Shown piece by piece: positions 1,913 through 20,721 of a stretch of DNA of 22,684 nucleotides. This DNA comes from a virus. The translations under genes and the position numbers were made by a program. The first letter of the stretch is position 1. Every line of letters begins with the position of its first letter. Under the pieces are notes generated by a model. The model made no database searches. It was not told the origin of the DNA and worked only from the letters and a program-made list of their open reading frames with translations. Where the stretch lies: positions 1 through 22,684 of the IMG/VR virus record IMGVR_UViG_3300025137_008070; one strand, written 5' to 3'.

Positions 1913-2460
1913 GCTCCTGCGTAACCTGTATTTTTAGCGGTTCGGGTGTCATTTAATTCATCAACTTCCACTCTATCATCATCTGGATCTTGCTCGTCTT
2001 CAACATCAGCATCTAACTTATCATACTCTAAAGCATGATATACTGATGATAGGTAATCAGCAGCTTTTGTAATTTTAGAAGCTGTCCAACCTTCTAAATT
2101 CTCTAAATTCTCCATATGGTTAAATAACTTGGTCGCATATTCAGCAGCTTTAAGTAATTCGGATCTTGCCATATCTAATTCTCCATCGTAATCATCAGTA
2201 TCGTGGTCATCGCAACCACAATCACTTCCACACCCATCTTCCTCACCAGCTTGAATATAAACTGTTTCTTCCTCTTTCTCTGCATCTTCACAATCTGATG
2301 AATCTCCTCTATCATCAATTTTAAGTACCACTACCTTTGAAGCAGTATTTTGAGAACCTGGTCCAGGTACATTTACCATTTTACCGACCATGGGACCCAT
2401 ACCCATATTTTCATTTAATGTTTTATATTGTTCAAATATTAGATTAGCCTCGTTATTCAT
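1909..2460 (-). CDS. Acidic Asp/Glu-rich phage protein with a CGxDCGC cluster, probably virion-associated
   Basis: This is a 183-residue protein if it starts at the ATG at 2460. An upstream in-frame ATG at 2490 would add ten residues, but that would put the TAAATA promoter element (2466-2473) inside the gene and overlap the divergent gene, so 2460 is preferred. The N-terminus (MNNEANLIFEQYK) resembles that of other phage structural proteins and holds an I-F-E site. The middle is strongly acidic, with a short Cys-rich stretch (C-G-S-D-C-G-C-D-D-H-D) that could bind a metal. The C-terminal half holds a helical domain containing ARSELLKAAEYA and SKITKAADYLSSVYH, which I recall as conserved in T4-like marine phages without an assigned function. 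A second acidic tail rich in D/E follows. It is the only minus-strand gene in the left part of the window. The function is unknown. Confidence 0.7.
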   Translation of the reverse strand: MNNEANLIFEQYKTLNENMGMGPMVGKMVNVPGPGSQNTASKVVVLKIDDRGDSSDCEDAEKEEETVYIQAGEEDGCGSDCGCDDHDTDDYDGELDMARSELLKAAEYATKLFNHMENLENLEGWTASKITKAADYLSSVYHALEYDKLDADVEDEQDPDDDRVEVDELNDTRTAKNTGYAGA

Positions 2461-2465
2461 ATTAT

Positions 2466-2473
2466 TATTTAAT
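2466..2473 (-). promoter_or_regulatory. T4-late-type promoter element ATTAAATA for the 2460 gene
   Basis: On the minus strand this reads ATTAAATA, followed by exactly five bases (ATAAT) and the ATG at 2460. It matches T4 late promoters (TATAAATA) except for the second base pair region, and it has the same N5 spacing as five other starts here. It overlaps the divergent plus-strand element by three bases. Confidence 0.55.
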
Positions 2474-2478
2474 AAATA
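2471..2478 (+). promoter_or_regulatory. T4-late-type promoter element AATAAATA for the 2484 gene
   Basis: AATAAATA differs from the T4 late consensus TATAAATA by one base. Five bases (ATTAA) separate it from the ATG at 2484. Because the T4 element is centred about ten bases upstream of the start site, transcription would begin at the ATG itself. There is no Shine-Dalgarno sequence. Confidence 0.6.
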
Positions 2479-2483
2479 ATTAA

Positions 2484-2795
2484 ATGACATTCGACAAACT
2501 ATATACTTCTCTTATAGAAGCATTCGACGAAGACGCAGAATATAAAGGTAGAAAAGTAACTCTCAATAAACCTACAAGAGGCGATGTAAAGAAATTTAAG
2601 GTATATGTTAAAAATCCTAAGACTGGTAACGTAAAAAAGGTTAATTTCGGTCATGGTGGTACATCTGCTAAAAGAAAAACAATGAGAATACGTAAATCAA
2701 ACCCTGCAGCTCGTAGATCCTTCAGGGCACGTCATAAATGTGATCAAAAGAAGGATAGAACAACTGCAGGCTACTGGTCATGCAAAAAATGGTAA
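2484..2795 (+). CDS. Small basic phage protein with capsid-targeting-type N-terminus
   Basis: This 103-residue protein is very rich in Lys and Arg. The first 13 residues (MTFDKLYTSLIEA) form a short amphipathic leader ending in L-I-E before Ala. That fits the (L/I)-x-E cleavage site of T4 prohead protease gp21, and T4 internal proteins carry a similar leader (MKTYQEFIAE then A). The body holds a Lys-rich section and then ARRSFRARHKCD and TTAGYWSCKKW. I recall these Cys/Trp blocks from small proteins of T4-like marine phages, with no known function. A histone-like, DNA-associated internal head protein is my inference from charge, leader and context. It is the first of four consecutive small basic genes and is probably expressed late from the element at 2471-2478. 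Confidence 0.8.
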   Translation: MTFDKLYTSLIEAFDEDAEYKGRKVTLNKPTRGDVKKFKVYVKNPKTGNVKKVNFGHGGTSAKRKTMRIRKSNPAARRSFRARHKCDQKKDRTTAGYWSCKKW

Positions 2796-2801
2796 TTTAT
2801 T

Positions 2802-2936
2802 ATGAAGACATTTAAAATATTTTTTGAAGATAGATGTAAAAGAAAAGCTGATAGCGTATATGGTAAAAAGACTTCAGCATATAAATCGGGGGCAATCGTT
2901 AGATGCCGTAAAGGTAAAATTTGGAAAAAGAAATGA
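2802..2936 (+). CDS. 44-residue basic protein with SAYASG-type block and capsid-targeting-type leader
   Basis: This gene is very short and easily missed. It starts at the ATG six bases after the previous stop and ends with TGA overlapping the next ATG (ATGA). The protein begins MKTFKIFFED, very like the T4 internal-protein leader MKTYQEFIAE, with a predicted cut after F-F-E. The remaining 34 residues include C-K-R-K, then KTSAYKSGAIVRCRKGKIW. This matches the recurrent S-A-Y-x-S-G-x-(V/I)-V-(R/K)-C-R block that I know from small proteins of T4-like marine phages. The product would be a peptide of about 34 residues with two cysteines and high positive charge. Coding is supported by the leader, the recognisable block and the exact ATGA coupling on its 3' side. 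Its function is unknown; a packaged internal peptide is inferred. Confidence 0.75.
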   Translation: MKTFKIFFEDRCKRKADSVYGKKTSAYKSGAIVRCRKGKIWKKK

Positions 2937-3094
2937 ATCAATTCGATACAATATTAGAAAGCTTATGGGCTAACATTAACAAGAAGAAAAAGTCTGGTAG
3001 AAAATCTGCAAGAAAAGGTTCAAAAGCTTACAAGGCTGCGAAAAAATCAGGTGATAAATTGCATGCTAATAAAGAGCGTAAAGCTGGTAAATAA
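2933..3094 (+). CDS. 53-residue Lys-rich protein, probable internal head protein
   Basis: This short gene has an ATGA overlap with the preceding one and a TAATG overlap with the following one, so the four small genes form one translationally coupled run. The N-terminus MNQFDTILES holds an I-L-E site before Ser, like the leaders of its neighbours. From residue 17 onward it is an almost pure Lys/Arg/Ala/Gly/Ser sequence (about 20 basic residues), resembling bacterial and chlamydial histone-like tails, with no cysteine. No catalytic motif is present. DNA binding or charge neutralisation inside the capsid is my inference. No family name can be given with confidence. Confidence 0.72.
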   Translation: MNQFDTILESLWANINKKKKSGRKSARKGSKAYKAAKKSGDKLHANKERKAGK

Positions 3095-3369
3095 TGAATT
3101 TTGATAATCTAGTTGAATACTATTTAACTGAGGCTAGTGATAGTTTACACCAATGGTTTAAACGTGGTGGTAAAGATCCAAAAACAGGTAAAAAATTTAG
3201 TGGTTGGATAAATTGTAAAACTGGAGGTCCTTGCGGTAGAAAATCAAAAAAATCAGGAGGTAGTTACCCAGCATGTAGACCTACTAAAGCTGCATGTAAA
3301 AAAATAAAAGGCAAGATGTATAAAAAGAAAAGTTCAAAGAGGGTATCCTGGAAGAAAAAAGGTAAATAA
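3094..3369 (+). CDS. Basic Cys-rich DUF5872-like phage protein with capsid-targeting-type leader
   Basis: This 91-residue protein has a leader MNFDNLVEYYLTEAS ending in L-T-E before Ala, a good gp21-type cleavage site. The body contains KDPKTGKKFSGWINCKTGGP and then CGRK...SGGSYPACRPT and AACKK. This Gly/Cys/Pro pattern with four or five cysteines I associate with DUF5872, a small domain in large phages and some giant viruses. The C-terminus is a Lys/Arg/Ser tail with W. The cysteine spacing could bind zinc, but that is not established. It is the last gene of the small-basic-protein run and shares one base with the previous stop. The same leader type on unrelated bodies in this run is the strongest hint of co-packaging. 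Confidence 0.8.
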   Translation: MNFDNLVEYYLTEASDSLHQWFKRGGKDPKTGKKFSGWINCKTGGPCGRKSKKSGGSYPACRPTKAACKKIKGKMYKKKSSKRVSWKKKGK

Positions 3370-3381: not shown

Positions 3382-4104
3382 ATGGCACACAACAATAATA
3401 TCGGTAAGATAACATCTACTAACGTGGCACCGAAAGGTACAGGAGCTAATCTTAGTACCACAACTGATAGTGGTAGTATATTAGGTTTAAGATATATTAA
3501 AGATAGTTCTAGTGGTGGTTCATCAGGTACGGGTGTAGCTCCAACTAATTTAGGCTCGATAGCTATTAAAGACTGGTTTGAGACATATGTTGGTAGTTTA
3601 GGTAATTATACTAATTCAAGCGGTGGTGATACTGATTTAAAGTGGGGCGATTATCGAGGTGCTACTATTTTAGGTATGAAGCTAAAAGCAAAAAATGAAT
3701 CTGCATCAAGGTATAAAAATGATGATAATGCTCAATTACAAATAACACCATTAAATGGTAGTGGTGTAGCTGGTGCATATACAATCACAGTCGGGGGATC
3801 ATCAGTTACCTCAAGTGGTAGTCGAGGTACTACATATACATCTGGTGGTTTTGGTAGCGATTCAACGGTAGCTGTTGTATTAACTGATACTAATACTGGT
3901 ACTTCTATTAGTATGCAGTGGACCACTGCATATGATAACGGGTCAACGAGTATTAGAGGCAGTGGTACCGTGGCTGGTCCAGAATTTCAATTCTTTTTTA
4001 CTGGTGCTACTGGCACAGCTTTTGGACCAACCAACGGTCTTTACTTTTTTAACGGAGTTGCGGCAAGTAGAGGATATGGGGTAGGTTACCCTGGTACCGG
4101 GTAA
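3382..4104 (+). CDS. Gly/Ser/Thr-rich probable virion structural protein (tail or fibre type)
   Basis: This 240-residue protein has low lysine content, many Gly, Ser, Thr and short hydrophobic beta-like repeats, and no cysteine. Residues around 85-100 (KWGDYRGATILGMKLKAKN) and the C-terminal Tyr/Phe/Gly-rich part (FFTGATG, GLYFFNGVAASRG) look like the beta-rich modules of phage fibre or tail-decorating proteins. I do not recognise a specific family. Unlike its left neighbours it has no capsid-targeting-type leader. It has its own late-type promoter element. Codon use is slightly richer in G/C than the island that follows, as expected for a structural gene. Host recognition is possible but not supported by any motif. 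Confidence 0.7.
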   Translation: MAHNNNIGKITSTNVAPKGTGANLSTTTDSGSILGLRYIKDSSSGGSSGTGVAPTNLGSIAIKDWFETYVGSLGNYTNSSGGDTDLKWGDYRGATILGMKLKAKNESASRYKNDDNAQLQITPLNGSGVAGAYTITVGGSSVTSSGSRGTTYTSGGFGSDSTVAVVLTDTNTGTSISMQWTTAYDNGSTSIRGSGTVAGPEFQFFFTGATGTAFGPTNGLYFFNGVAASRGYGVGYPGTG

Positions 4105-4138: not shown

Positions 4139-4993
4139 ATGGCAACCCTTAAAGAGCTACTGACTGAAGATGCATCTAAATACATTTGTAGAATACAAAT
4201 AGGTAATTTAACAATACCTTATACAAATATTAAAAAGTTTAATTCAAATAATTTAGTTGTAGATAAACCTACCGATATTGTATTATATAACATTATTACT
4301 GATAAAGTTGATACTATTGATGTAAATTCTATAGTTAAATATACAGTATTGCATAGAGATGATGAGAATAAAAATGAAACTGCAGAATTATCTTTGTTTA
4401 ATGAATATAAAGAAATTATTAAAGATAAAAATGTATATGATAAAATTTTATATAAAGATGTAGTTAGTCATAATTTACATAAAGTATTAAATTTATTTAA
4501 CTTTTCAATTAATAGTGATAATATTATAAACAACAAACCTTTTGATGAAGAAAGAGAAACTATTATATCAAGTTTTATCAAAATAATTCAAAATAAAGTC
4601 GATAAAACGTTATTAGAGTTAGATGAACTTCTAACAAAAACAGATGATGAAGAAGATATTGAAGATATAAACAATATAAAAGAAATCTTTAATGATGTGG
4701 TAAGCGATATGGATCTTAGTGAATTAAATACTTTTACTGATTTGACTGATAACTGGCCACCGTTATTATTACCGTTACCTGATGTAATGACAAATGCTTT
4801 TAACTCCCCTACAACATTTGTAACTGAAGATACTATCGATGAACATATACAAGTAATTGAATCTATAGAAAATATTACTGATAAAGATATGTTATCTAAT
4901 TTTTTAAAAATTTTAGAAAATAATAAAAGTAAATTAACTGACTATCATTATAATACCCTCTATAAAGCAATTAACGATAATTATATATTGTAG
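4139..4993 (+). CDS. Hypothetical protein leading the radical SAM island
   Basis: This 284-residue protein is not recognised. The N-terminus MATLKELLTEDAS has the look of a capsid-targeting leader (L-T-E before Asp), and residues 16-75 look like a small beta domain. Residues 85-200 are helical and charged, with a D/E cluster at about 168-177. A Pro/Leu patch (NWPPLLLPLPDVM) lies near 206-218, and the C-terminus is helical. There is no cysteine cluster and no membrane segment. Its last codons and stop sit inside a 10-bp perfect inverted repeat that also holds the ribosome binding site of the next gene, so the two are probably translationally coupled. It could be a virion protein left of the island boundary or a partner/substrate of the radical SAM enzymes; the sequence does not decide. 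Confidence 0.7.
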   Translation: MATLKELLTEDASKYICRIQIGNLTIPYTNIKKFNSNNLVVDKPTDIVLYNIITDKVDTIDVNSIVKYTVLHRDDENKNETAELSLFNEYKEIIKDKNVYDKILYKDVVSHNLHKVLNLFNFSINSDNIINNKPFDEERETIISSFIKIIQNKVDKTLLELDELLTKTDDEEDIEDINNIKEIFNDVVSDMDLSELNTFTDLTDNWPPLLLPLPDVMTNAFNSPTTFVTEDTIDEHIQVIESIENITDKDMLSNFLKILENNKSKLTDYHYNTLYKAINDNYIL

Positions 4994-5000
4994 AGGGTAT
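4953..5000 (+). promoter_or_regulatory. Inverted repeat sequestering the ribosome binding site of the first radical SAM gene
   Basis: ATACCCTCTA (4953-4962) is perfectly complementary to TAGAGGGTAT (4991-5000), with three more inner pairs possible (one G-U) and a 22-base loop. The right arm carries the stop codon of the upstream gene, the AGAGGG Shine-Dalgarno-like sequence and the first two bases of the ATG at 4999. A ribosome finishing the upstream gene would open the stem, so coupling or translational control is likely. No U-run follows, so it is not a standard terminator. Confidence 0.6.
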
Positions 5001-6024
5001 GAATGTTAATAATTTAAGTATTAAAAATTTTGATGTCGATTACGAAACAAAAAGATGTAATCGAGCGAAATTAGATACTGGATTTCACTGCAATTATAAG
5101 TGTGAATTTTGTTATTACATAGATAGGCTAGATGTTAAAACCCCATTTTCTACAATACAGCAACGTATTAATATACTTCATAAATATGGTATTTCCGAAG
5201 TAGACTTATCTGGAGGTGAAAGTTCAATACATAAAGATTGGTTTAAAATACTAGATTATTGCAATGAAAGATTTGATAATATTAGTTGTTTAAGTAATGG
5301 TTCAGTCTTTTCTAACGAAAAGTTTTTATTAAAATCAAAAAAGCATGGTCTAAAAGAAATATTATTTAGTTTACATGGTTATAATGAAGAAGTGCATGAT
5401 GATATAGTAGGTAGAAAAAATGGTTGGAAGAAAATACATAAAGCTATTAAACTATGTAAGAAACATGATATAAAAGTTAGGATTAATTGCACAGTATATC
5501 AAAAAAATTACAAAGGTTTAGTAGAATATGCTGATATTATAAAGGAAATACAACCATTTCAAGTTAACTTTTTAACGTTAAACTACTGGGATGCCAATAA
5601 AACATTCGAACCTATTGATGATTACGAAGGTCTTACAGATAAAATAAAACAGTGTATTGATCTTATCGTAAATGATACAAAATATATTAATGTAAGATAT
5701 ACCCCTTACTGCTATATGAAGGGTTATGAAAAATATGTATGTAATCAGTATCAACATGTGTATGATATATATGATTGGAATAAGGAAATATATGATTATG
5801 ATGTAGATTTAACTAAAACATACACTGAAAAAGAAAAAATAGATTTAGGTTATTTAAAAGCACAAGACGGTCGACTAGATGGGTGTAAGAAACCTATTAA
5901 ATGTATAAGATGTAAATATTTTAACATCTGCGATGGTATTGAACAGCAACTAGATATAGAAGTACACCCTGAAGAAGGGGAAAAAATTACTGATGTAAAT
6001 TTTTATAGAAAAGATTTTTATTAA
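4999..6024 (+). CDS. Radical SAM enzyme 1 (MoaA/SPASM-like)
   Basis: This is a 341-residue iron-sulfur enzyme expected to cleave S-adenosylmethionine to a 5'-deoxyadenosyl radical. Cys31, Cys35 and Cys38 form the CxxxCxxC cluster-binding motif (CNYKCEFC), and residues 72-74 are the SAM-contacting G-G-E. A partial TIM barrel follows, with the usual N-G-S and H-G strands (LSNGS, FSLHGYNEEVHD). The C-terminus has Cys296, 302, 305 and 311, compatible with an auxiliary iron-sulfur cluster as in SPASM/Twitch proteins. It is the first of six different radical SAM genes and is the only one with a clear Shine-Dalgarno sequence, which is hidden in a hairpin. The substrate is unknown; nearby glycosyltransferases make a sugar, glycan or peptide substrate possible. 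Confidence 0.88.
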   Translation: MNVNNLSIKNFDVDYETKRCNRAKLDTGFHCNYKCEFCYYIDRLDVKTPFSTIQQRINILHKYGISEVDLSGGESSIHKDWFKILDYCNERFDNISCLSNGSVFSNEKFLLKSKKHGLKEILFSLHGYNEEVHDDIVGRKNGWKKIHKAIKLCKKHDIKVRINCTVYQKNYKGLVEYADIIKEIQPFQVNFLTLNYWDANKTFEPIDDYEGLTDKIKQCIDLIVNDTKYINVRYTPYCYMKGYEKYVCNQYQHVYDIYDWNKEIYDYDVDLTKTYTEKEKIDLGYLKAQDGRLDGCKKPIKCIRCKYFNICDGIEQQLDIEVHPEEGEKITDVNFYRKDFY

Positions 6025-6924
6025 ATGAATATACAAAAATGCGGCTATAAAGATTTTAAGCTACATACACTACAATGGTTCATGATAGATGTATGTAATA
6101 TGAAATGTAGTTATTGCATCGAGGGTTTCGGTAATAATGAATATTTAAAAAAATGTGATTTTAATAAAAATAAAACAAAACAAGAATCATATAAAAAGGT
6201 CTTAAAATTACTAAATCTCAAAAAAGTTCCTAAGTTTAATATAGAATTATTAGGAGGAGAACCAACGCTACATCCTAAGTTTAATTATATTCTCGACTCA
6301 TTGGTTGAAATTAATCAGTGTGATAAAATAGAAATAATGACTAATTTAAAAAATGCTAAACGTATATTTGAAAATGTTAAACCGGTTAATAAAATTTTAA
6401 TAAACCCTTCTATACATTTTGAATCATATGATGAAAATTCAATTCAAAGTAATATAAAAAATTTAATAGATAGAGGCTTTAGACTGACCCCTACAGTTAT
6501 GCTGCATGATAAAAGTCAATACTGGGATAAGATGGAAGAGTTTTTTAACTTTTGTTTAGATAACAATATAAAATACGATGTTTCATATCTTTATGATACC
6601 GGGTTTGGTTATAGGTCAAAATATAGTGAAGAGTTTTATAGCATATTTAAAAAATATATAAAAAATGATGATAGAACCTGGCCGTTTCAAGTTGATGGTG
6701 TTCAAGGTAACTATAGTTATGATGATATTATTACCAATAAAATGTCTAATTTAAAAGGTATTAATTGTAAACCTCTAAGGTGGGTTATCGACTATAAGGG
6801 TGGTATATATAATGCGTGTTCTAAAATGCCATTCATCTTATACATGAACAAAGAAACATCAATAAAGTGTCCTTTTGGTACTTGTGGGTGTGATATACAG
6901 TGGGATTATGAAAAGCATTTTTAA
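6025..6924 (+). CDS. Radical SAM enzyme 2 (SPASM-like), paralogue of the 10491 gene
   Basis: This 299-residue protein begins at the base after the previous stop. Cys24, Cys28 and Cys31 (CNMKCSYC) bind the radical SAM cluster, and the G-G-E-P motif is at 77-80 in LLGGEPTLHP. The C-terminus has CKPLRW then cysteines at 248, 265, 282, 287 and 289 (CPFGTCGC), arranged like an auxiliary-cluster domain. It is clearly a relative of the gene at 10491: the shared elements are IDVCNxKCSYC, ELLGGEPTLHP, CxPLxW and a cysteine-rich end. The pair probably arose by duplication within the island or was recruited twice. The next gene starts inside its last 17 bases. The substrate is unknown. Confidence 0.87.
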   Translation: MNIQKCGYKDFKLHTLQWFMIDVCNMKCSYCIEGFGNNEYLKKCDFNKNKTKQESYKKVLKLLNLKKVPKFNIELLGGEPTLHPKFNYILDSLVEINQCDKIEIMTNLKNAKRIFENVKPVNKILINPSIHFESYDENSIQSNIKNLIDRGFRLTPTVMLHDKSQYWDKMEEFFNFCLDNNIKYDVSYLYDTGFGYRSKYSEEFYSIFKKYIKNDDRTWPFQVDGVQGNYSYDDIITNKMSNLKGINCKPLRWVIDYKGGIYNACSKMPFILYMNKETSIKCPFGTCGCDIQWDYEKHF

Positions 6925-7873
6925 ATTAAATAAAAATTATGATATATTCTTATCTCTTACTTGGGAAAATGGTCATGAACATGGGATTAGCGGCCACATA
7001 TATGAGATCATAGATTATTTTTATATTTTAAATAAAACATTTAAAGTTGGTATTTTTTTTGGAGAAAGTATTAATAACTGGTCTGAATTTAAAAAATTAA
7101 TTTTACAAAAATATAATTTTAGTGATTTAGAATTAAAAGATTATAAAAATAATACATTTTATTATAATAGACCAGAAATTATAACTGGAAAGAATATATT
7201 ATTTGTCGATGGTGCGTTGAAGGCTAGATTTGTCAATAATGGTACTATATTAAATTTTAAAAATATATTATCATTTAAATGTTCAAACCATTGCAATCAT
7301 ACACTTTTTGATATACCATATAAAGTACAACTATTATCGGACTTAAGAGTATATTCAGAAATAATACCTGAAGAAAATAAAATAGCATTACATTATATTA
7401 AAAAAATATTGTTTGAAAAATACAAACAAATTGATAAATGTAAAGTTAATAAAACGGCAATGTTATATATAACCTCTAATTGTAGATATATAACTGATAA
7501 ACTATTAACTGATATAACTAATAGATATAATTTTGAAAAATATATAGTAATTACCAATAAACCTGAAAAGTATATTAATTATAGAGATGGACGGGTTGAA
7601 TTTATAAAGCCTGGTATTGATAAACTATTTGAAAAATTTAATACCTATATATACACTCCAATAGATGGTAAATTTGACTGCAGTCCTAGATTAATAGCAG
7701 AGTGTAAATATTATAATAAAGATGTTATTTATCATAATATAGATAATGAATATTTAAAAATTGATAGCGGTTTAAGAGTACGTAGAAGTGATGTTGATAC
7801 TAATTTTAAAACATTATTTTTAAATAATAAAGACCCAATCGTAGGAATACTAAATGAAACAATACATAGATAA
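6908..7873 (+). CDS. Putative GT-B-type glycosyltransferase-like protein
   Basis: The 321-residue product starts at the ATG at 6908, which overlaps the previous gene by 17 bases; an earlier GTG at 6875 would overlap it by 50 and is less likely. The N-terminal part (SLTWENGHEHGISGHIYEII) has the small-residue and His-rich loop seen at the acceptor side of some GT-B enzymes. Near the C-terminus, YTPIDGKFDCSPRLIAECKY resembles the donor-binding region where such enzymes have a conserved acidic/Pro motif and a following helix (SPRLIAECKYYNK). No DxD motif or membrane segment is seen. I assign glycosyltransferase from this pattern and from the neighbours only, and it may be a more distant sugar- or nucleotide-binding protein. 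It overlaps the next gene by 20 bases. Confidence 0.6.
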   Translation: MKSIFKLNKNYDIFLSLTWENGHEHGISGHIYEIIDYFYILNKTFKVGIFFGESINNWSEFKKLILQKYNFSDLELKDYKNNTFYYNRPEIITGKNILFVDGALKARFVNNGTILNFKNILSFKCSNHCNHTLFDIPYKVQLLSDLRVYSEIIPEENKIALHYIKKILFEKYKQIDKCKVNKTAMLYITSNCRYITDKLLTDITNRYNFEKYIVITNKPEKYINYRDGRVEFIKPGIDKLFEKFNTYIYTPIDGKFDCSPRLIAECKYYNKDVIYHNIDNEYLKIDSGLRVRRSDVDTNFKTLFLNNKDPIVGILNETIHR

Positions 7874-8879
7874 AATAAAATCATTTGAATTAATAAAAAA
7901 TGATGATTGGTTCGACTACGATTTAAAAATTACTTTAAAACCTAGTTTTAAGTGTAACCATAAATGTTGGTTTTGTGGGGAATATGATAATAATACTAAA
8001 ACGTGGACTAAAGATCAATGTGATGAAGTCTTATCTAAGTTAAAAGAAATACCAAAAAGTAAGAAAAAAATATTTTTTTATTTCTACGGGGGAGAACCTA
8101 CATTAAGTAAATTTTGGGAATATTTAAACTATGAAATTGTAAAATTATTTCCAGATAAAGAGCTTTTTTTACAAACTCATACAAACTTAAGTTTACCAGT
8201 TAGAAGATTAGAAAAATTTTTAATTAATATTCATAAATTAAAAAATAGTAACCATACAATAGATATATGTAATAGTTATCATATTGGTAAACAACAAGTT
8301 ACTGAGTATATTAAGAAAATGGATATATGTGACAAATACAATAGTCTAGGTTTTTGTTTTTTCAGTACTGAAATACCTAAAAAAGAACAAATGTTAGATG
8401 AAATGGGTCAAATTATACAATCACATCCAACCAAACTTAAAATGAAATTTACTGAAATAGAAAATTTGGCTTTAAAACCTAGTAGTGGTTATGAAGAATA
8501 TGTAAAAGATATAGAACTAGTTGGTGATGATAACGGTAAAAGTTTAGAGTATCGATACTGGATGAAATACTATCCTCAATTTGAAAAATACTTCGAGGAA
8601 AGTTGGAATTTTCTTATAAACGGTAAATTAAAACTAAATTATTCTCATGTTAAAGGTAATAACGTACATAAAAAATTTAGATTCATGAAATGTGAAAGTG
8701 GTAAAAAAAATATAATTATAAACTACGATATGAGAGTGTTTAGATGTAACGATTATAGTTATAAAAATTTAAAATCTATTAACCTATCTGATTTAAATTT
8801 TGAACAATATTTAGATACATGTGAAAGATGCGTTATAACTTCATGTTGCGATGGACTGGACCATAAAAAGACGTTATGA
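7854..8879 (+). CDS. Radical SAM enzyme 3 (SPASM-like)
   Basis: This 341-residue protein carries the CxxxCxxC motif at Cys34, Cys38 and Cys41 (CNHKCWFC), and G-G-E-P at 79-82 in YGGEPTLSKFW. The C-terminal part has FMKCESG, FRCNDYS, and CERCVITSCCDG, a cysteine-rich region fitting one or two auxiliary clusters. The start overlaps the previous gene by 20 bases, and the stop overlaps the next ATG (ATGA), so the whole section is read as one message. It is not closely similar to the other radical SAM proteins here outside the motifs, which suggests a different reaction or substrate. A weak GGA lies seven bases upstream of the start. Confidence 0.87.
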   Translation: MKQYIDKIKSFELIKNDDWFDYDLKITLKPSFKCNHKCWFCGEYDNNTKTWTKDQCDEVLSKLKEIPKSKKKIFFYFYGGEPTLSKFWEYLNYEIVKLFPDKELFLQTHTNLSLPVRRLEKFLINIHKLKNSNHTIDICNSYHIGKQQVTEYIKKMDICDKYNSLGFCFFSTEIPKKEQMLDEMGQIIQSHPTKLKMKFTEIENLALKPSSGYEEYVKDIELVGDDNGKSLEYRYWMKYYPQFEKYFEESWNFLINGKLKLNYSHVKGNNVHKKFRFMKCESGKKNIIINYDMRVFRCNDYSYKNLKSINLSDLNFEQYLDTCERCVITSCCDGLDHKKTL

Positions 8880-9538
8880 AATTATCTATATTAATATTAA
8901 CCCACAATCGACCTAAATTATTTAAAAGGTGTATTGATAGTGTTATAAAAAATCTACCAGATTTTGATATAGAAATACTTGTAAATAACGATAGTAACGA
9001 TATAGAAGAAGTTTATAGCGAAAATATAACTATAAAATATTTTTATAAAAAATATAAAGAATTAGGTGAAACATATAGATTTTTATATTTAGAAAGTAAA
9101 GGGGAATATATATTTTTCTTAGAAGATGATGATTATATTTTACCTGCTTTTTTTAAACATATAAAACTTAAACAAGATCTGTATATATCAAATTATATAT
9201 CTAAACCTCTACAAAAAACTTATAATTTTAAAACTGTATTTAAAGAAATAGATTGTACATTATATTACAAAGATAGTTTAAATTTTAAAGAATATATCTC
9301 ACTATATAACCCAAGATATTTTCAATTAACTCAGATAGTTTTCCGGAAAAGTTCTGCAATAAATTTCTTTAAGAGTAATTTTAAATCGACTTTAGATTTT
9401 GATTATAATTTATTTAAAAGTTTAAAAATTGATACATTTAAATGTATAAAATCACCCATATGGGTTCAAACTAATGATGGTGAAGATAATTTAAGTTTTT
9501 CTGAATTAAATACAGATAAAAGGTACCCTATAAAATGA
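8876..9538 (+). CDS. GT2 family glycosyltransferase
   Basis: This 220-residue protein has the GT-A fold of family 2 glycosyltransferases. The N-terminus LSILILTHNRPKLFKRCIDS is the usual first strand and helix, LVNNDSND is the second strand with the nucleotide-binding acid, and FFLEDDDYILP (83-86 E-D-D-D) contains the metal-binding DxD. There is no membrane segment, so a soluble enzyme that moves a sugar from a nucleotide-sugar donor is expected. The acceptor is unknown. It is shorter than a typical 250-300-residue GT2 domain. ATGA overlaps on both sides tie it between two radical SAM genes, so both activities probably act on the same molecule. Confidence 0.85.
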   Translation: MKLSILILTHNRPKLFKRCIDSVIKNLPDFDIEILVNNDSNDIEEVYSENITIKYFYKKYKELGETYRFLYLESKGEYIFFLEDDDYILPAFFKHIKLKQDLYISNYISKPLQKTYNFKTVFKEIDCTLYYKDSLNFKEYISLYNPRYFQLTQIVFRKSSAINFFKSNFKSTLDFDYNLFKSLKIDTFKCIKSPIWVQTNDGEDNLSFSELNTDKRYPIK

Positions 9539-10470
9539 AAACTACACCAATACCACAAGCTCAAGTTTTTTTAAATAACACCTGTTCATTAAAGTGTAAT
9601 TTTTGTATGAATAAACATATAAAAAATGAATCTTCTGATTACCCATGGCCATGGGAAAATAAAGATGATAATTTAAAGGTAGGTAGAATAAATGATATAA
9701 AAAAATATATAGACTATCTAATTGAAATGGGTGTCAGGAGAATAGAATTAGGTACAACTATCGGTGAACCATTAGAACATGATATAGATGATTTGAATGA
9801 AATTTTTAGGTATTTAGAAATTAACCCAGACATAGAAAGTTATTTTTTCTATACAAATTTAACCCAATTGAAAGATAAACATATTGAAATTTTTGACCAG
9901 TATAAAAAATTACAGATAAAAATTAGTTGTTATGGTTTAACTTCAAAACAGTTTAAACAACAGACTGGTTATGAATTATGGTACAAATTTAAAACTAATC
10001 TTAAAAAATTGGTAACAGTTAAACGTAAAATGAAAATTTTACTAGCACTACGCGCGCCAATTAAAAATGATGAACAGCAACTTAACTGGTTAAAATTAAA
10101 AGCTATTAGTATTAAGTCTCATCATGATGTAGTATTTGAAGAAACTGCTATACATTTTAATTGGAAACATACAATTGATTTTAAGAAAATTAAAAACCAA
10201 AAACCTAACCAACATAAAGGACACTGTGGTATGATATACACTGATTGTGGTATTTTAGGCAACGGAGATTTTACTATTTGCGCATGGTTAGATGTCTACG
10301 GAGATGGTAAAGTTGGTAACGTGTTTAAAGATGCACCTAAAGAGATGCTACAACTACGACAAAAGATAATAGACGATCAAAATAATGGTATATTTAACAA
10401 TATATGTAAATATTGTAAATTTTATGTACCTGCTAATATAGGAAAGGCTGATCAAGCTGGTACTATATAA
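9535..10470 (+). CDS. Radical SAM enzyme 4 with unusual GGE variant
   Basis: This 311-residue protein has Cys17, Cys21 and Cys24 in CSLKCNFC near the N-terminus. The position normally occupied by G-G-E-P reads T-I-G-E-P (75-79, in GTTIGEPLEHD), so one glycine is replaced but the glutamate is kept. The C-terminal SPASM-type region contains HCGMIYTDCGILGNGDFTIC and ICKYCKFYVP; the G-x-G-D/x-x-x-C pattern is typical of SPASM auxiliary cluster binding. It is the last gene of the first block and ends 20 bases before the next promoter element. Its substrate is unknown. SPASM enzymes commonly act on peptides, sometimes on sugars or cofactors (family knowledge). Confidence 0.86.
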   Translation: MKTTPIPQAQVFLNNTCSLKCNFCMNKHIKNESSDYPWPWENKDDNLKVGRINDIKKYIDYLIEMGVRRIELGTTIGEPLEHDIDDLNEIFRYLEINPDIESYFFYTNLTQLKDKHIEIFDQYKKLQIKISCYGLTSKQFKQQTGYELWYKFKTNLKKLVTVKRKMKILLALRAPIKNDEQQLNWLKLKAISIKSHHDVVFEETAIHFNWKHTIDFKKIKNQKPNQHKGHCGMIYTDCGILGNGDFTICAWLDVYGDGKVGNVFKDAPKEMLQLRQKIIDDQNNGIFNNICKYCKFYVPANIGKADQAGTI

Positions 10471-10477
10471 TAAATTA

Positions 10478-10485
10478 ATTAAATA
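10478..10485 (+). promoter_or_regulatory. T4-late-type promoter element ATTAAATA for the 10491 gene
   Basis: ATTAAATA, then CATAA, then the ATG at 10491, so exactly five bases. It lies in a 20-base gap, the only true gap between 4999 and 15096. It separates the first block of the island from the second. Confidence 0.55.
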
Positions 10486-10490
10486 CATAA

Positions 10491-11588
10491 ATGTTTGATA
10501 CCATAACAGCTGCGGGTAACACAAACTATAAATTACTAACTTTTTCTTGGGATATTATAGATGTATGCAACTATAAATGTAGCTATTGTAGTGCAAAAGC
10601 TTTTAATAAGCATACATTTAAAAAAATAAAAGATAAAAAAGCTACATGGCAGAATGTAATAAAAATATTGTCTCTTAAAAAAATAAAAATACCATTTACT
10701 GTTGAATTACTCGGCGGTGAGCCGACTTTACACCCGGATATATATGAAATAGTTAAAGAATTATGTGCTATAGATAATTGTATTCAAGTTGAAATAACAA
10801 CTAATCTATCAAAAAGTATAGATTTTTTTAAACAATTTGATAAACCTGAAACTGATAAAGTTGATATAGTTGCTTCATACCATCCAGAATATTTTACACC
10901 AAAATTTATTGATAAATTAATTGAAATAGACAAATGTAAACATTTAACTATTACCCCTCTTATAAATTTATTTCATGAAAAAGAATATTGGCAATCTACT
11001 TTAGATTTAGTCAATACATTAAAGAATAATAAAATTAATTTTGCTGGTAATTTATTATATGAATTTGAAGGTAATGACTTTACTCCAAAATATACTAAAG
11101 AATTTTGGGACATTTTTGAACCTATTTTTTATAACAATCCTTTAGATGAAAGTATGTATATAGAAGGAAGTAATAAATTAACAAACGATAATATAGATAA
11201 ATATTTTAACGAAAAACTAGTTAACTACGATCAAAATTTTTTAATAAATCATCGAAAGTTAATAAAAGAAGAAAAGTATAAAAATAATAACTCAGTTATA
11301 ATTAATCGAGCTCGTATATTCAGAGGCGATATTAATGGTAAATCAGTAAATAAAACATTAACAGATGCTGATATTTATAAACATAAATTGTATCAGTATG
11401 AAGGTTGGGATTGCAGACCGTTAATGTGGAAGATCAATATGAATGGTACTATTCAAAATTCATGTACCGGTAAACTAATACAGTTAATGGAGATAGATAA
11501 TAATAATCTGACTAGCTGTGTTACATGTCCGTTAAAATATTGTGATTGTAATACCAAATATCAGTATGTAAAAAGAAAAAAATCATGA
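10491..11588 (+). CDS. Radical SAM enzyme 5 (SPASM-like), paralogue of the 6025 gene
   Basis: This 365-residue protein has Cys26, Cys30 and Cys33 in IDVCNYKCSYC, and G-G-E-P at 75-78 in LLGGEPTLHP. The C-terminus has CRPLMW, then cysteines in NSCTGK and CVTCPLKYCDC, an auxiliary-cluster arrangement. It shares the N- and C-terminal motif sets with the 299-residue protein encoded at 6025, but carries an extra charged helical section of about 60-70 residues (around 210-290) before the C-terminal cysteines. It is the first gene of the second block and has a late-type promoter element just upstream, with no ribosome binding site. ATGA overlaps the next gene. Confidence 0.87.
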   Translation: MFDTITAAGNTNYKLLTFSWDIIDVCNYKCSYCSAKAFNKHTFKKIKDKKATWQNVIKILSLKKIKIPFTVELLGGEPTLHPDIYEIVKELCAIDNCIQVEITTNLSKSIDFFKQFDKPETDKVDIVASYHPEYFTPKFIDKLIEIDKCKHLTITPLINLFHEKEYWQSTLDLVNTLKNNKINFAGNLLYEFEGNDFTPKYTKEFWDIFEPIFYNNPLDESMYIEGSNKLTNDNIDKYFNEKLVNYDQNFLINHRKLIKEEKYKNNNSVIINRARIFRGDINGKSVNKTLTDADIYKHKLYQYEGWDCRPLMWKINMNGTIQNSCTGKLIQLMEIDNNNLTSCVTCPLKYCDCNTKYQYVKRKKS

Positions 11589-12418
11589 TACCAAGTTGGG
11601 ATAAAAAATACATCGAGCTGTCAATTACAGCTAAATGTAATATGGCTTGCCATAACTGCGATGCTATGATTAGACAAGCTCCTAAAATGGATAATACCAT
11701 GACGATTGAACAAATAACTAGTTTTATAGATGAATCTTTAGAAAATAATATAAAATGGGAAATTATAGTTCTTACTGGTGGTGAGCCTTTACTTCATCCA
11801 AATATACAACAAATAATTAGAATGTTAAATAAAGCATTTTTTAAGAATGGTGTAATATATAAAGGTGATTATAACCATACTACTTATTTTCATGAACATA
11901 TAGAGAATTATATTAAAGAGGGGTTAGTAGTATTAACTAACGGTAAACAAAAAAATAAATTAATAAATTTACAACATACATCCCATTTAATTAATCTCCT
12001 AAGCACTCATAAAAAAGATAATAATCAATTATTTTACCCTATTAATATTGCACCGATAGATAATATTAATTATAAGGCAAATAAAAATAAAGAATATGCC
12101 CGTGTTCATAAAAAATGTCAATGTGCTCAACCTTGTTTAACAAAACATGGTTATTATCCGTGTACAACTGGTGCTGCTATTGATAAAGTATTCGGTATGG
12201 ATACTGGTATTAAAAATATTAAAGACATTAATGATGATGCGGTATATAAACAATTTGAAGATTTATGTAAATATTGTGGTTACTTTAACGAAATCGCACC
12301 ATTTGAAGTCCCAGAGGAACATGTTAAATATACAGATAAGACAACTCTTTCACCAACATGGAAAAAGAAGTTAATTGAATATAAAATAAACAAACCTGAC
12401 TTAACTGATTATAAATGA
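11585..12418 (+). CDS. Radical SAM enzyme 6
   Basis: This 277-residue protein has Cys18, Cys22 and Cys25 in CNMACHNC, and G-G-E-P at 65-68 in VLTGGEPLLHP, the most canonical of the six. The C-terminal region has KKCQCAQPCLTKHGYYPCTT and LCKYCGYFNE, likely ligands of an auxiliary iron-sulfur cluster, with the G-Y-Y-P-C pattern typical of SPASM-like domains. The resemblance to enzymes in nucleoside, cofactor or RiPP chemistry is only at the motif level. It starts with ATGA overlapping the previous gene and ends with ATGA overlapping the next, a glycosyltransferase. A 75-codon open frame within it in another register is not considered real. Confidence 0.87.
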   Translation: MIPSWDKKYIELSITAKCNMACHNCDAMIRQAPKMDNTMTIEQITSFIDESLENNIKWEIIVLTGGEPLLHPNIQQIIRMLNKAFFKNGVIYKGDYNHTTYFHEHIENYIKEGLVVLTNGKQKNKLINLQHTSHLINLLSTHKKDNNQLFYPINIAPIDNINYKANKNKEYARVHKKCQCAQPCLTKHGYYPCTTGAAIDKVFGMDTGIKNIKDINDDAVYKQFEDLCKYCGYFNEIAPFEVPEEHVKYTDKTTLSPTWKKKLIEYKINKPDLTDYK

Positions 12419-13344
12419 AAAATATAATATATACATGTTTCTCATGCCCAGATGATAAGCGTCCTAAATTTTTAGACTTACATGTAGATCTAATAAAAAC
12501 GTATGCAAAAAAATGCAAATGCGATTTTAAAATAATGGATGTCGATAAAAATTATAATCCTCCAGTTTTTACCGTATACGAGGCTTATAAAGAATTTGCA
12601 GAATCTAATTATGATAAAATGTTATATATTGATTGGGATGTTTTAATATCTTTAAAAAGTGATAATATATTCGATAGTTATAATAAAGATAAATTTACTG
12701 CATATAAATGGAAAACAGGGTTTACCGATAAACATATTATTATTGATACTATGTCTGATTTTAATGAATATGTATCTACCCCGGGTCTAGACGGAAAGGA
12801 TAATCTACTGCTACCTGAATTTATAAAAAAAATATGTGGTAGGGATGTTAGTTTAAATTTTTTAAGGTATTATGTAAATGATGCAATATCTGGAGGAGTT
12901 ATGATGTTTGATAGAGAGACTATGAATACCTTCTTGTATAATGGTCATATAACATGGGAAGAAATATATGATAAAATAACTTTTCTTAGAGAAGTACAGG
13001 ATTTAGAACATAATAAACTATTAAATGCAGGTGGAGTTTTATCTCATTTTGCTATTAATTATCTATTATATATTAATGATATTAAAGTAACTGCTTTAGA
13101 TAAAAAATGGAATACAAATAGCGTAACTGGTAAAATGATGCCAGATGAGTTCTTCTATAATTTTAATTGTGGGGGCGACGAATTAATAACAGGTAATGAT
13201 TTTAATGAAAAAAATAATGCAGCCCTAAAGTATGTTATTAACAATAGGTCTTCCTTTTTTAATACGAAAGAAAAATTTACAAACTTTATAAAAAAATATA
13301 ATGCAACTGATATAATTAAAAGTAAAGGTAATAATGGAAAATGA
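12415..13344 (+). CDS. GT-A-type (GT8/GT34-like) glycosyltransferase
   Basis: This 309-residue protein starts MKNIIYTCFS, followed by a region describing a moving nucleotide-sugar fold: LIKTYAKKCKCDFKIMDVD, then MLYIDWDVLIS with D73-W-D75 as the metal-binding DxD. The D-x-D with preceding hydrophobic strand (DKMLYIDWDVLI) is characteristic of GT8/GT34-type and related alpha-galactosyl or hexosyl transferases. Later NDAISGGVMMFDRETM and NAGGVLSHFAINYLL match the usual acceptor-side strand (S-G-V-M-x-F). It is soluble with no transmembrane segment. The exact family number is uncertain. It overlaps the transketolase N-terminal gene by 11 bases. Confidence 0.78.
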   Translation: MKNIIYTCFSCPDDKRPKFLDLHVDLIKTYAKKCKCDFKIMDVDKNYNPPVFTVYEAYKEFAESNYDKMLYIDWDVLISLKSDNIFDSYNKDKFTAYKWKTGFTDKHIIIDTMSDFNEYVSTPGLDGKDNLLLPEFIKKICGRDVSLNFLRYYVNDAISGGVMMFDRETMNTFLYNGHITWEEIYDKITFLREVQDLEHNKLLNAGGVLSHFAINYLLYINDIKVTALDKKWNTNSVTGKMMPDEFFYNFNCGGDELITGNDFNEKNNAALKYVINNRSSFFNTKEKFTNFIKKYNATDIIKSKGNNGK

Positions 13345-14023
13345 TATAATAAAACTATCATATGAAAATGATCTTTCTCATATACCATCTGCTCTTAGTA
13401 TGTTAAACTACTTAGATAGGTTGTATTATAATAAAATTTTATCTAAACAAAATCATACAGTTATAGGTAAACCTCATGGGGCTCAATCGTATTTTTATAT
13501 ATGGAAAAAATATGGATTAATTAATGATTACAACAATATATCTACGTCATTAAAAAATAATGATGTAGATTTTTTAGATTTTTCGATAGACATACTTGGT
13601 GATGCATTAGGTATAGGTTCAGGTATTGCTCATGTTAGTGATAAGCATGTATGGGTTAATATAGGTGATGGTGTATTGCAAATGGGTAATACATTAGAGG
13701 CTATACAATATATCGGTACTAAACAAATAAAAAATATATTATGTACTGTAGACTTCAATAAATCCCAACGATGTGGTAATTTATTGATAGATATTGAACC
13801 AGTAATAAATTTTTGTAAAGAGTATAACTGGAATGTATATCGCTGCAACGGACATGATAACGATGAAATCGACTCTATACTAAATAAACTTAAATTTAAT
13901 AAACCTACAATTATATTTTTCGATACTATTAAAGGACATGGAGTAGATTTTATGCAAAAAAATATAAAAGAATGGCATTATAAAAAAATAGATGAGAAAT
14001 ACTATAGACAGATTTTTGGGTAA
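13334..14023 (+). CDS. Transketolase N-terminal (pyrophosphate-binding) subunit
   Basis: This 229-residue protein corresponds to the first domain of transketolase, which binds the diphosphate of thiamine diphosphate. Visible family elements, in order: VIGKPHGAQSYFYIWKKYG (the S-K-G-H-A region, with P in place of G), LGDALGIGSGIA, then I-G-D-G at 110-113 followed 29 residues later by N142 in VDFNKSQ (the GDG-x26-30-N metal and diphosphate motif), and GHGVDFMQKN then EWHYKK near the end. A two-gene split (N and C subunits) is well known in archaea and some bacterial sugar-biosynthesis clusters. Together with the next gene it would move a two-carbon unit onto an aldose or related aldehyde. The substrate pair is unknown. 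Confidence 0.9.
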   Translation: MENDIIKLSYENDLSHIPSALSMLNYLDRLYYNKILSKQNHTVIGKPHGAQSYFYIWKKYGLINDYNNISTSLKNNDVDFLDFSIDILGDALGIGSGIAHVSDKHVWVNIGDGVLQMGNTLEAIQYIGTKQIKNILCTVDFNKSQRCGNLLIDIEPVINFCKEYNWNVYRCNGHDNDEIDSILNKLKFNKPTIIFFDTIKGHGVDFMQKNIKEWHYKKIDEKYYRQIFG

Positions 14024-14480
14024 ACTACATAATAAGGATATCTACTTAATACATGGTGATATGTGGCATTTTGATTATTTTAAAAATAGAATGCCAAATA
14101 ATGTCATTGACTGCGGTATTCAAGAACCTAATATTGTAAATATAGCATGTGGTATTGCTAGTCAAGGTAAAACAGTTTTTATATATGGTGTATCGGGTAT
14201 GATATTGCATAGAGCATATGAGCAAATTAAACTAAATGTTAAAAGTTGGGCTGAATATAAAGGTAAGATTATTTTTATAAATTCTGGACATAATGGTTGT
14301 TATACTGACGCTGGTAGAGGTCATTTAATTGATGATGATATTGCTCTTTGCAAAGCTTTAAATATAAAAACTCATACACCTAGTACCAGAGGTGGTTTAA
14401 TAAGGTATATAAAAAATAAATTAAAAGATAAAACTGGTACATGTTTTATTAGACTAGGGTGGGATAATTGTGAATGGTAA
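13992..14480 (+). CDS. Transketolase C-terminal (pyrimidine-binding) subunit, lacking the last domain
   Basis: This 162-residue protein matches the second transketolase domain: DCGIQEPNIVNIACGIASQG contains the catalytic glutamate (E45) in G-I-x-E-x-N, and YTDAGRGHLIDDDIALCKAL corresponds to the G-x-D-G-x-T-H-x-x-x-E-D region. Two-gene transketolase C subunits are normally about 300 residues because they also contain a third domain. Here the protein stops at about the end of domain two, so only 391 residues in total cover both genes. It starts at an ATG inside the previous gene (32-base overlap) and ends inside the next (11-base overlap). Whether it works as a full transketolase, or as a reduced TPP enzyme, is not known. 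Confidence 0.87.
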   Translation: MRNTIDRFLGKLHNKDIYLIHGDMWHFDYFKNRMPNNVIDCGIQEPNIVNIACGIASQGKTVFIYGVSGMILHRAYEQIKLNVKSWAEYKGKIIFINSGHNGCYTDAGRGHLIDDDIALCKALNIKTHTPSTRGGLIRYIKNKLKDKTGTCFIRLGWDNCEW

Positions 14481-15096
14481 AAAAATTTTATTAACCGGTA
14501 GTAACGGGTTTTTAGGTAAACATTTATATAAAGCTTTATCAATTCATAATGATGTTATTGAATATAATAAAGATGTAAGATTACCAATTACAGATAATTT
14601 AGATATTGATACAATCATTCATTTAGCATCTCCTACTGATTTTGAAGACTTAAAAGATAATAATAAAGTAGTTACTACTATTATTGATGGTACTTGTAAT
14701 ATGTTAAATCTAGCAAATAAAACAAAAAGTAAGTTTATATTTGCTAGCACTATGGGTATATACGAAAAGGATACTAGATATGCATATGGTAATTGTAAAT
14801 TAGCTATGGAAAATTATATTACTAGTACTAATCACAATTATGTAATATTACGAATACCTCGGGTGTATCATAAAAGTAAGATAAAAGGTTTAATGAAACG
14901 GTTAAGAAGGGGTATGATTAACTCTGCAGATTTAAATAATACTGTTAATTTTATATATATAGATGATTTTTTAGACCAGACCATTAAATGTATTGATGAT
15001 ACTAATATAGTTTATGAATATATTAATATAAAGACAGATACAATAAAAAATATATCACATATGTGTGATATAAGTATTGAAATTCCTGAAATATAA
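14470..15096 (+). CDS. NAD-dependent epimerase/dehydratase (extended SDR)
   Basis: This 208-residue protein starts with a GTG inside the end of the transketolase C-subunit gene. It has the Rossmann G-x-x-G-x-x-G at G10/G13/G16 (TGSNGFLGKHL), the D-x-x-x-x-L-A-S strand (IIHLAS), and FASTMGIY followed by Y106-x-x-x-K110, the SDR catalytic Tyr and Lys. Typical nucleotide-sugar epimerases are about 310 residues; this one lacks around 100 residues of the substrate-binding end. It probably converts a nucleotide sugar, but the specificity (epimerase, dehydratase or reductase) cannot be told. It is the last gene of the second block; the stop lies just before an early-type promoter. Confidence 0.85.
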   Translation: MNGKKILLTGSNGFLGKHLYKALSIHNDVIEYNKDVRLPITDNLDIDTIIHLASPTDFEDLKDNNKVVTTIIDGTCNMLNLANKTKSKFIFASTMGIYEKDTRYAYGNCKLAMENYITSTNHNYVILRIPRVYHKSKIKGLMKRLRRGMINSADLNNTVNFIYIDDFLDQTIKCIDDTNIVYEYINIKTDTIKNISHMCDISIEIPEI

Positions 15097-15104
15097 TATA
15101 TAAT
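15077..15104 (+). promoter_or_regulatory. Sigma70-type promoter TTGAAA-N16-TATAAT inside the island
   Basis: TTGAAA at 15077-15082, then 16 bases, then TATAAT at 15099-15104, seven bases upstream of the GTG at 15112. It lies partly in the end of the SDR gene. The same hexamers and spacer occur upstream of folE2. It would allow host-polymerase expression of the last block of the island. Confidence 0.55.
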
Positions 15105-15111
15105 TAATATT

Positions 15112-15729
15112 GTGAATAACCCATGGTTATGTGTAAAGGATTTTGAGCAATCTATTTGTAATTATACCGGTAGTAAGTATGCAGTAGCTGTTGATAGTTG
15201 TACTAATGCAATTTTTTTATCACTAATATACTATAAAAAATTTATTAACAAAAAAGATATTACAATAACTATACCGAGTAGAACGTATATATCTGTACCA
15301 ATGCAAATAATAAATGCTGGTTATAAACTAAACTTAATAGATTATGAGTGGATTGGTTCATATAAATTAAAAAATACTCCTATTATTGATTCGGCTCAAA
15401 ATTTTACAAAAGACATGTATATAAAAGATACATTTCAATGTATATCTTTTCAGTTTAAAAAACATTTACCAATTGGTAGGGGAGGAGCAATATTAACAGA
15501 TGATGCTAATGCATACGAGTGGTTAATCAAAGCGAGACACGATGGTAGAAATATGTATACTGAATATGGTAATATAGGTAATATAGATATAATTGGTTAT
15601 CACTGTCCTCTATTACCTAATGAAGCAATTAAAGGTCTAGAATTATTATTAAATATGAATTTAACGTCTAATAATATACCTGGTAGATCTACAGATTACC
15701 CTATAATAAATAAAAATTTATTTAAATGA
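15112..15729 (+). CDS. DegT/DnrJ/EryC1-type sugar aminotransferase, short
   Basis: This 205-residue protein starts with GTG. It shows the DegT/StrS fold-type I PLP pattern: YTGSKYAVAVDSCTNAIFLSL (the N-terminal G-x-x-x-A-x-x-x-S-x-x-N/T-A signature), P-I-I-D-S-A-Q (D93, which contacts the pyridine ring), and SFQFKKHLPIGRGGAILTDD with K117 as the likely PLP lysine. Enzymes of this family are usually about 370 residues; this one ends after the large domain and keeps only a short C-terminal end with P-L-L-P-N-E-A-I-K. It could aminate a keto-sugar, or be a reduced paralogue. The stop overlaps the next gene (ATGA). No ribosome binding site is seen. Confidence 0.82.
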   Translation: MNNPWLCVKDFEQSICNYTGSKYAVAVDSCTNAIFLSLIYYKKFINKKDITITIPSRTYISVPMQIINAGYKLNLIDYEWIGSYKLKNTPIIDSAQNFTKDMYIKDTFQCISFQFKKHLPIGRGGAILTDDANAYEWLIKARHDGRNMYTEYGNIGNIDIIGYHCPLLPNEAIKGLELLLNMNLTSNNIPGRSTDYPIINKNLFK

Positions 15730-19163: not shown

Positions 19164-19169
19164 ATTAAT

Positions 19170-19358: not shown

Positions 19359-19361
19359 ATA
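19354..19361 (+). promoter_or_regulatory. T4-late-type promoter element CATAAATA for the 19367 gene
   Basis: CATAAATA, then ATAAT, then the GTG at 19367: exactly five bases. It overlaps the stop codon of the H1-like gene (TAA at 19356-19358). Confidence 0.6.
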
Positions 19362-19366
19362 ATAAT

Positions 19367-19798: not shown

Positions 19799-19800
19799 TT

Positions 19801-19808
19801 AATAAATA
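19801..19808 (+). promoter_or_regulatory. T4-late-type element AATAAATA upstream of the 19822 gene
   Basis: AATAAATA lies 13 bases before the ATG at 19822, so a short leader of about eight bases would be expected. An ATG at 19818 lies just downstream, but it runs into a stop after three codons (ATG-TAT-GGT-TGA). Confidence 0.4.
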
Positions 19809-19821
19809 ACTGCATTTATGT

Positions 19822-20712: not shown

Positions 20713-20721
20713 CTTAATTAA

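Follow-up and report, generated by a model that had tools for sequence, protein, structure and literature searches.

Several T4-like phages carry unusually many genes for radical S-adenosylmethionine (radical SAM) enzymes. Campylobacter phages CP220 and CPt10 have 11-12 such genes, including an interchangeable module of five (Timms 2010, PMC2853527). TARA_ERS488813_N000010, a 183-kb T4-like marine genome, has 12, which were interpreted as Fe-S metabolism (Nishimura 2017, PMC5332604), and pelagimyophages carry radical SAM cassettes in their host recognition cluster (Zaragoza-Solas 2020, PMC7029224). Four papers on T4-like phages with many radical SAM genes gave differing guesses at function: low-oxygen fitness, DNA protection, Fe-S metabolism and host O-chain change. 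Here we analyse IMG/VR virus record IMGVR_UViG_3300025137_008070, whose whole length of 22,684 nt (22.7 kb) we call the window. It contains six radical SAM genes, RS1 to RS6, within a cassette at 4999-19163 that occupies a fixed site and whose inner genes are swapped wholesale between sister phages. Radical SAM clustering itself is already published; the fixed-site, swappable cassette and its core, RS1 with the glycosyltransferase GTx, are new here.

Like the window phage, CP220 and CPt10 are T4-like, have at least five radical SAM genes (six in the window; we counted 11 in CP220) and exchange a radical SAM module between close relatives. CP220 has homologues of RS1 (48% identical) and GTx (~28%), and CPt10 and others have one of RS3 (~35%); CP220 also shares homologues of both transketolase halves (TKN and TKC), an epimerase (EPI2), the PIG-L enzyme and the polysaccharide deacetylase-like protein PDAC. 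However, the CP220 genes are dispersed (RS1 at 139 kb, GTx at 121 kb, the radical SAM cluster at 70-79 kb), and CP220 has an amidinotransferase in that cluster and a CTCDCNY-repeat protein, both of which the window lacks. The pelagimyophage cluster, a region of T4-like marine phages with tail fibres, glycosyltransferases and radical SAM cassettes, is likewise hypervariable. The window shares the glycosyltransferases and radical SAM genes, and the product of its gene g3382 is a candidate fibre; the borders that define the pelagimyophage cluster are VrlC and gp14. The cultured pelagimyophage HTVC008M differs in having a single radical SAM gene. TARA_ERS488813_N000010 is comparable by description only. 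In bacterial O-antigen and capsule loci, too, conserved borders frame a replaceable block of genes for nucleotide-sugar enzymes and glycosyltransferases, but the window cassette is rich in radical SAM genes and has no flippase, polymerase, initiating transferase or membrane protein. In the open-access literature we found this gene order in none of the characterised pathways.

Results

The cassette is replaced at a fixed site

The same bordering genes enclose the cassette across the window's lineage. Between the window and two same-site relatives, G002 and G006, flank proteins are mostly 91-99% identical (cytidylyltransferase-like CYT 91%, g2484 96-97%, FolE2 99%), with g1909 (77%) and g19170/g19367 (80-85%) less conserved. 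The corresponding values for g3382, GTx, RS2, GT2 and TKN all fall within 34-52% (g3382 34-36%, GTx 48-50%, RS2 36-40%, TKN 49-51%). When G002 and G006 are compared with each other, the flanks, RS1 and PDAC are 98-100% identical (g3094 95%, g19367 94%), while the inner genes have diverged (GT2 38%, TKN 51%, TKC 49%). The DNA from RS4 to GTy is almost unmatched in every same-site relative. DNA identity in the right flank is 82-83% at 19157-19801 and 93% at 21002-22193. The locus is thus no one-off insertion that near relatives lack, as they carry a same-site locus with different contents.

RS1 and GTx form the conserved core of the cassette. RS1 is 79-84% identical in same-site relatives, and GTx is the commonest non-radical-SAM family across RS1 loci; two further families, f8 and f25, proved to be GTx relatives. 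One relative, G010, holds a short version (RS1-GTx-RS3-unknown-PDAC-glycosyltransferase) whose gene content reads as a natural minimal set.

Six radical SAM genes lead a sugar-enzyme operon

Six open reading frames (ORFs) at 4999-12418 score 33-68 bits for Pfam Radical_SAM, above its cut-off of 29.5, and a six-frame search over the whole record found the same six and none further. Each has a single CxxxCxxC motif and several C-terminal cysteines (Table 1). The original prediction, which had counted six distinct radical SAM enzymes in about 7.4 kb with these features, is thus confirmed. Its description of their arrangement stands in part. In the order RS1-RS2-GTx-RS3-GT2-RS4-RS5-RS6-GTy, the three glycosyltransferase-type genes are indeed interspersed, but RS1-RS2 and RS4-RS5-RS6 are adjacent rather than alternating; overlaps of at least 4 bases connect most genes, but RS4 and RS5 are separated by 20 bp; and the enzymes differ outside the core, except that RS2 and RS5, which are 34% identical, belong to a single family. 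RS3 is 35% identical to Firehammervirus proteins, and RS4 is 30% identical to CP220 gp087 across half the RS4 length. Peptide-pattern scans of IMG/VR, sensitive to close relatives only, found none for RS4, RS5 or RS6, and a PDB sequence search gave no significant relatives of RS3, RS6, GTx, GTy or g3382.

The radical SAM block of this phage locus continues into sugar-enzyme genes as one co-directional operon ending at 19163, and a single pathway, as had been proposed, is likely. The AlphaFold2 model of GTx (pLDDT 88.8, pTM 0.90) aligns with a GT-B enzyme in VIA (Z 17.1, 268 aligned residues, root-mean-square deviation 3.7); the VIA matches listed for GTx are glycosyltransferases of GT-B type, and Foldseek likewise gives GT-B. 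In this model GTx has two Rossmann-like domains arranged as in GT-B enzymes, and sugar transfer is its predicted activity. The aminotransferase, epimerase and transketolase genes are short, yet their lengths are similar across loci, so gene decay does not explain their size. No hydrophobic segment of any cassette protein exceeds 1.43 in a 19-residue window (a 93-aa control protein reaches 2.14), and no flippase, polymerase, initiating or lipid-carrier transferase, or other membrane protein is encoded in the cassette. The lack of membrane segments speaks against an O-antigen pathway that is complete in itself and is in keeping with a cytoplasmic target.

Table 1 Features of the window (positions in the record)
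Feature	Position	Strand	Basis
Conserved left flank: CYT, g1909, g2484, g3094	2-3369		81-86% DNA identity to G002/G005/G006
g3382, fibre/adhesin-like, fast-diverging, proposed acceptor	3382-4104	+	Putative role
g4139, adjoins RS1 throughout this lineage	4139-4993	+	Alignment of relatives
RS1, core radical SAM, phrog_27238, left cassette border	4999-6024	+	PF04055 68.4 bits; C302/305/311 invariant
RS2, radical SAM of RS2/RS5 family, phrog_13987	6025-6924	+	PF04055 35.7 bits; C248/265/282/287/289, C-terminal Cys invariant in family alignment
GTx, conserved core GT-B glycosyltransferase, phrog_24441	6908-7873	+	Predicted fold; no Pfam match; 6908 the better start
RS3, radical SAM, phrog_24890	7854-8879	+	PF04055 40.9 bits; C280/298/323/326/331/332
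GT2-family glycosyltransferase	8876-9538	+	PF00535 E=1.9e-10
RS4, radical SAM, variable part	9535-10470	+	PF04055 33.4 bits; C231/238/249/291/294
RS5, radical SAM, variable part, RS2 paralogue	10491-11588	+	PF04055 42.2 bits; C308/325/343/346/351/353
RS6, radical SAM, variable part	11585-12418	+	PF04055 40.8 bits; C178/180/184/193/228/231
GTy, putative GT-A-like	12415-13344	+	DWD motif only; no family match
Transketolase N-terminal half (TKN)	13334-14023	+	PF00456 E=1.3e-11
Transketolase pyrimidine-binding half (TKC)	13992-14480	+	PF02779 at cut-off; family found in 28 loci
NAD-dependent sugar epimerase/dehydratase, short	14470-15096	+	PF01370
DegT/DnrJ/EryC1 sugar aminotransferase, short	15112-15729	+	PF01041
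NAD-dependent epimerase/dehydratase	15726-16616	+	PF01370 E=3.5e-34
PIG-L type de-N-acetylase	16609-17262	+	PF02585
UDP-glucose/GDP-mannose dehydrogenase-like	17259-17996	+	PF00984 and PF03721, both below cut-off
Polysaccharide deacetylase-like (PDAC)	17993-18523	+	PF01522
GT32-type glycosyltransferase, right cassette border	18513-19163	+	PF04488
Conserved right flank: g19170, g19367, kinase-like gene, membrane protein, FolE2, g22089	19170-22684		

RS1 loci are widespread and linked to fibre-like and Cys-repeat genes

The RS1 query retrieved 15 IMG/VR loci and an RS1 alignment 65, of which 52 are distinct. Genes were called as simple ORFs, and families were set by clustering that may have split or merged some (RS1 itself is spread over several clusters); the contigs are fragments, so absences count weakly. 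At least five radical SAM genes are present in 45 of the 52 loci, a richness partly conditioned on collecting loci via RS1. Whole relative records have 1-11 by Pfam, against 0-1 per whole genome in the controls T4, HTVC008M, S-PM2, P-RSM6, Melnitz and NCTC12673. With at least 52 distinct loci, and with clustering published (PMC2853527, PMC5332604, PMC7029224), the view that the arrangement is exceptional in phage DNA is not supported. In the phage collection, Firehammervirus-group Campylobacter phages are the only ones with relatives of RS1, RS3 and GTx.

A pair of fast-diverging genes, g3382-like and g4139-like, lies immediately upstream of RS1 in each of the 10 loci from the window's lineage and its relatives G007-G009; g3382 is 27-46% identical between phages with neighbouring genes at 82-97%. 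G007-G009 have different flanks, and there the gene preceding the pair encodes a fibre that terminates in S74, a fibre chaperone domain (for G009 this assignment comes from a sequence motif alone). Another 29 loci, belonging to other lineages, encode a Cys-repeat protein, often S74-bearing, mostly 4-6 genes before RS1 and 1-2 genes from a radical SAM gene of family R12, R16, R18, R19 or R21. The PapB ranthipeptide maturase is the best match for the exemplars of these families, nearly end to end in four of the five (78-132 bits). Because these sister-locus enzymes match peptide thioether maturases, radical SAM protein modification is plausible in the sister loci. Altogether, a fibre-like or Cys-repeat gene lies just upstream in 42 of the 52 loci, including three truncated S74a cases (G012, G013, L071); several of the other 10 begin too near RS1 to judge.

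CP220 gp140 (L107:933-2537) carries CTCDCNY heptads, and the radical SAM gene gp136, with PapB as its best match, is a few genes away. The heptads correspond to the 21-bp intragenic repeat of gp140 noted by Timms 2010 (PMC2853527). Such a Cys-heptad fibre-like protein is possibly a virion protein resembling a ribosomally synthesized and post-translationally modified peptide (RiPP). We found no paper on Cys-heptad fibre proteins in the open-access literature.

Cysteine patterns also occur elsewhere. CTCNCNY heptads are present in fibre-like proteins, many with S74 (L054:6864-7514, L055:5972-6730, L056:3955-6519, L089:4579-6636, L097:3392-4267), and these stand near radical SAM genes matching ranthipeptide/SCIFF maturases. 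A second pattern, CICNSDCxCNxVCxCxxDCGCNYSDERLK, is found in S74a proteins (L061:6971-7681; L064-L067; L073; L075; L099) encoded directly downstream of radical SAM family R12. In CP220, the 141-aa protein gp166 (L007:23107-23532) has a sequence dense with CxxC-type repeats, and its gene lies three genes before that of the RS1 homologue.

Source phage, flanks and side observations

The left-end protein of the window is 27-32% identical to proteins of T4-like cyanophages and pelagiphages, and long-contig relatives have a T4 major capsid protein. In the 185-kb relative G005, whose FolE2 is 98% identical to that of the window, the major capsid protein is only ~33% identical to isolates. From these similarities, the window phage belongs to a deep uncultured T4-like aquatic lineage. 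A bacterial origin of RS1 was rejected, as the sole genome-scan match is an 8.4-kb contig (L050, NZIV01000084.1) with the same phage-type cassette (RS1-GTx-TK-PIGL), binned as a Neomarinimicrobiota metagenome-assembled genome; probably this phage contig was misbinned, or else it hints at the host.

The AlphaFold2 model of g4139, of moderate confidence (pLDDT 76.1), has no significant fold match in PDB or BFVD, and hhalign gave no homology of g3382 or g4139 to the S74/Cys-repeat, f15 or f8 families. The genes at 2484-2795, 3094-3369, 4139-4993 and 19367-19798 encode N-termini (MTFDKLYTSLIEA, MNFDNLVEYYLTEA, MATLKELLTED, MITFKTFFES) that may resemble the T4 capsid-targeting peptides cleaved by the gp21 protease. 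Between the cassette and FolE2, 19822-20712 encodes an aminoglycoside/choline kinase-like protein (NDLNAHNIII...IDMSE), with a relative at the same position in G006 (31%) and none in G002 or G005. Other cassette versions contain tryptophan-halogenase-like (L089:18194-19474) and 2-oxoglutarate (2OG)-Fe(II) oxygenase (L078:15198-15809) genes, and an amidinotransferase occurs in other RS1 loci, e.g. G008, L064 and L065.

Discussion

We propose, with moderate confidence, that the cassette makes a variable, radical SAM-tailored glycan or other modification and attaches it to a virion fibre or adhesin, substrate and product being part of the proposal. The genes at 13334-18523 would produce unusual nucleotide sugars, probably amino or deacylated; RS1 and GTx would start or anchor the product; and the variable RS2-RS6 with GT2, GTy and GT32 would tailor and extend it. 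The enzymes would all be cytoplasmic, and the product would be joined to a protein of a virion appendage, with g3382 as the likeliest acceptor. Inner-gene swaps between sister phages would then alter particle surface chemistry and so the way in which hosts or competitors recognise the particle. Gene identities, the GT-B fold of GTx, the lack of membrane segments, the replacement of the cassette and its recurring linkage to fibre-like genes are results of the analysis, whereas we infer which acceptor and glycan are involved, how the steps are ordered and why the swaps are selected.

Several observations weigh against this proposal. RS1-RS6 match known radical SAM enzymes mainly in the core domain, and their matches to peptide-maturase models are mostly limited to that core, far below cut-offs and not near full length. 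The g3382 family has only marginal PHROG matches (one member to a tail protein, E=0.011), g3382 has no PDB match and its virion location is itself proposed. The divergence of g3382 shows no clear correlation with that of any cassette gene (Spearman 0.4 with GTx). The window lacks the Cys-repeat gene, and CxC(N/D)CNY occurs neither in the window nor in the 185-kb G005. Common descent explains both gene orders that link Cys repeats to maturases, and the 29 loci therefore do not count as independent cases. Finally, host-interaction genes of all kinds gather in variable regions, which makes proximity weak proof of an acceptor.

The original prediction had listed both the virion and the host surface as possible targets of decoration, and these stay the leading options. 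Remodelling of the host surface, in which sugars made by the cassette would be added during infection, from the cytoplasmic side, to lipid-linked O-chain or core of the host and competing phages thereby excluded, as read in pelagimyophages (PMC7029224), would suit glycosyltransferases, epimerases and deacetylases typical of O-antigen loci, and the host recognition cluster of pelagimyophages is a similar region. However, the cassette lacks the membrane protein, flippase, polymerase and initiating transferase noted above, and fibre-like genes are closely linked to it across lineages. The fibre linkage and the lack of membrane segments favour modification of a virion appendage, and we consider host glycan remodelling, the main rival, rather unlikely.

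A metabolic role, as a secreted or intracellular metabolite or in host Fe-S or low-oxygen metabolism (PMC5332604, PMC2853527), is improbable: the halogenase, 2OG-oxygenase and amidinotransferase-like genes of sister cassettes recall natural-product clusters, but a fixed metabolic need would not go with contents that change from one phage to a near-identical other, and there is no transporter in the cassette. We regard as still less probable that radical SAM enzymes and glycosyltransferases decorate phage DNA, a role suggested for radical SAM proteins (PMC3322345). DNA of related Campylobacter phages is reported refractory to enzymes, and FolE2 (21003-22055; NF010200, 276.7 bits) lies near the cassette. 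However, in G005 FolE2 is accompanied outside the cassette by QueD (G005:C1:68012-68404) and QueC (G005:C1:101552-102199), neither of which was seen in the cassette-bearing G011, G014, G020, G023 and G024, so the two systems are separable, and no cassette protein matches a DNA-modification family. FolE2 with QueD and QueC suggests a 7-deazaguanine pathway outside the cassette, possibly for DNA modification. Viperin-like synthesis of antiviral nucleotides against competing phages can be dismissed, since RS1 reaches 60-73 bits against prokaryotic viperin models in the radical SAM core only, far under the NCBIfam cut-off (60 against 180 bits), and many radical SAM models score alike.

More tentatively, these cassettes may be a widespread phage system in which a tail fibre or adhesin is post-translationally modified, cross-linked in RiPP-like fashion in sister lineages and CP220 and given a swappable radical SAM-tailored glycan on g3382 in the window's lineage. 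The fixed site, the RS1-GTx core, the wholesale swapping and the linkage to fibre and Cys-repeat genes together give one testable frame, a changeable chemical modification of the particle. It can be tested directly, because CP220 and its relatives are in culture.

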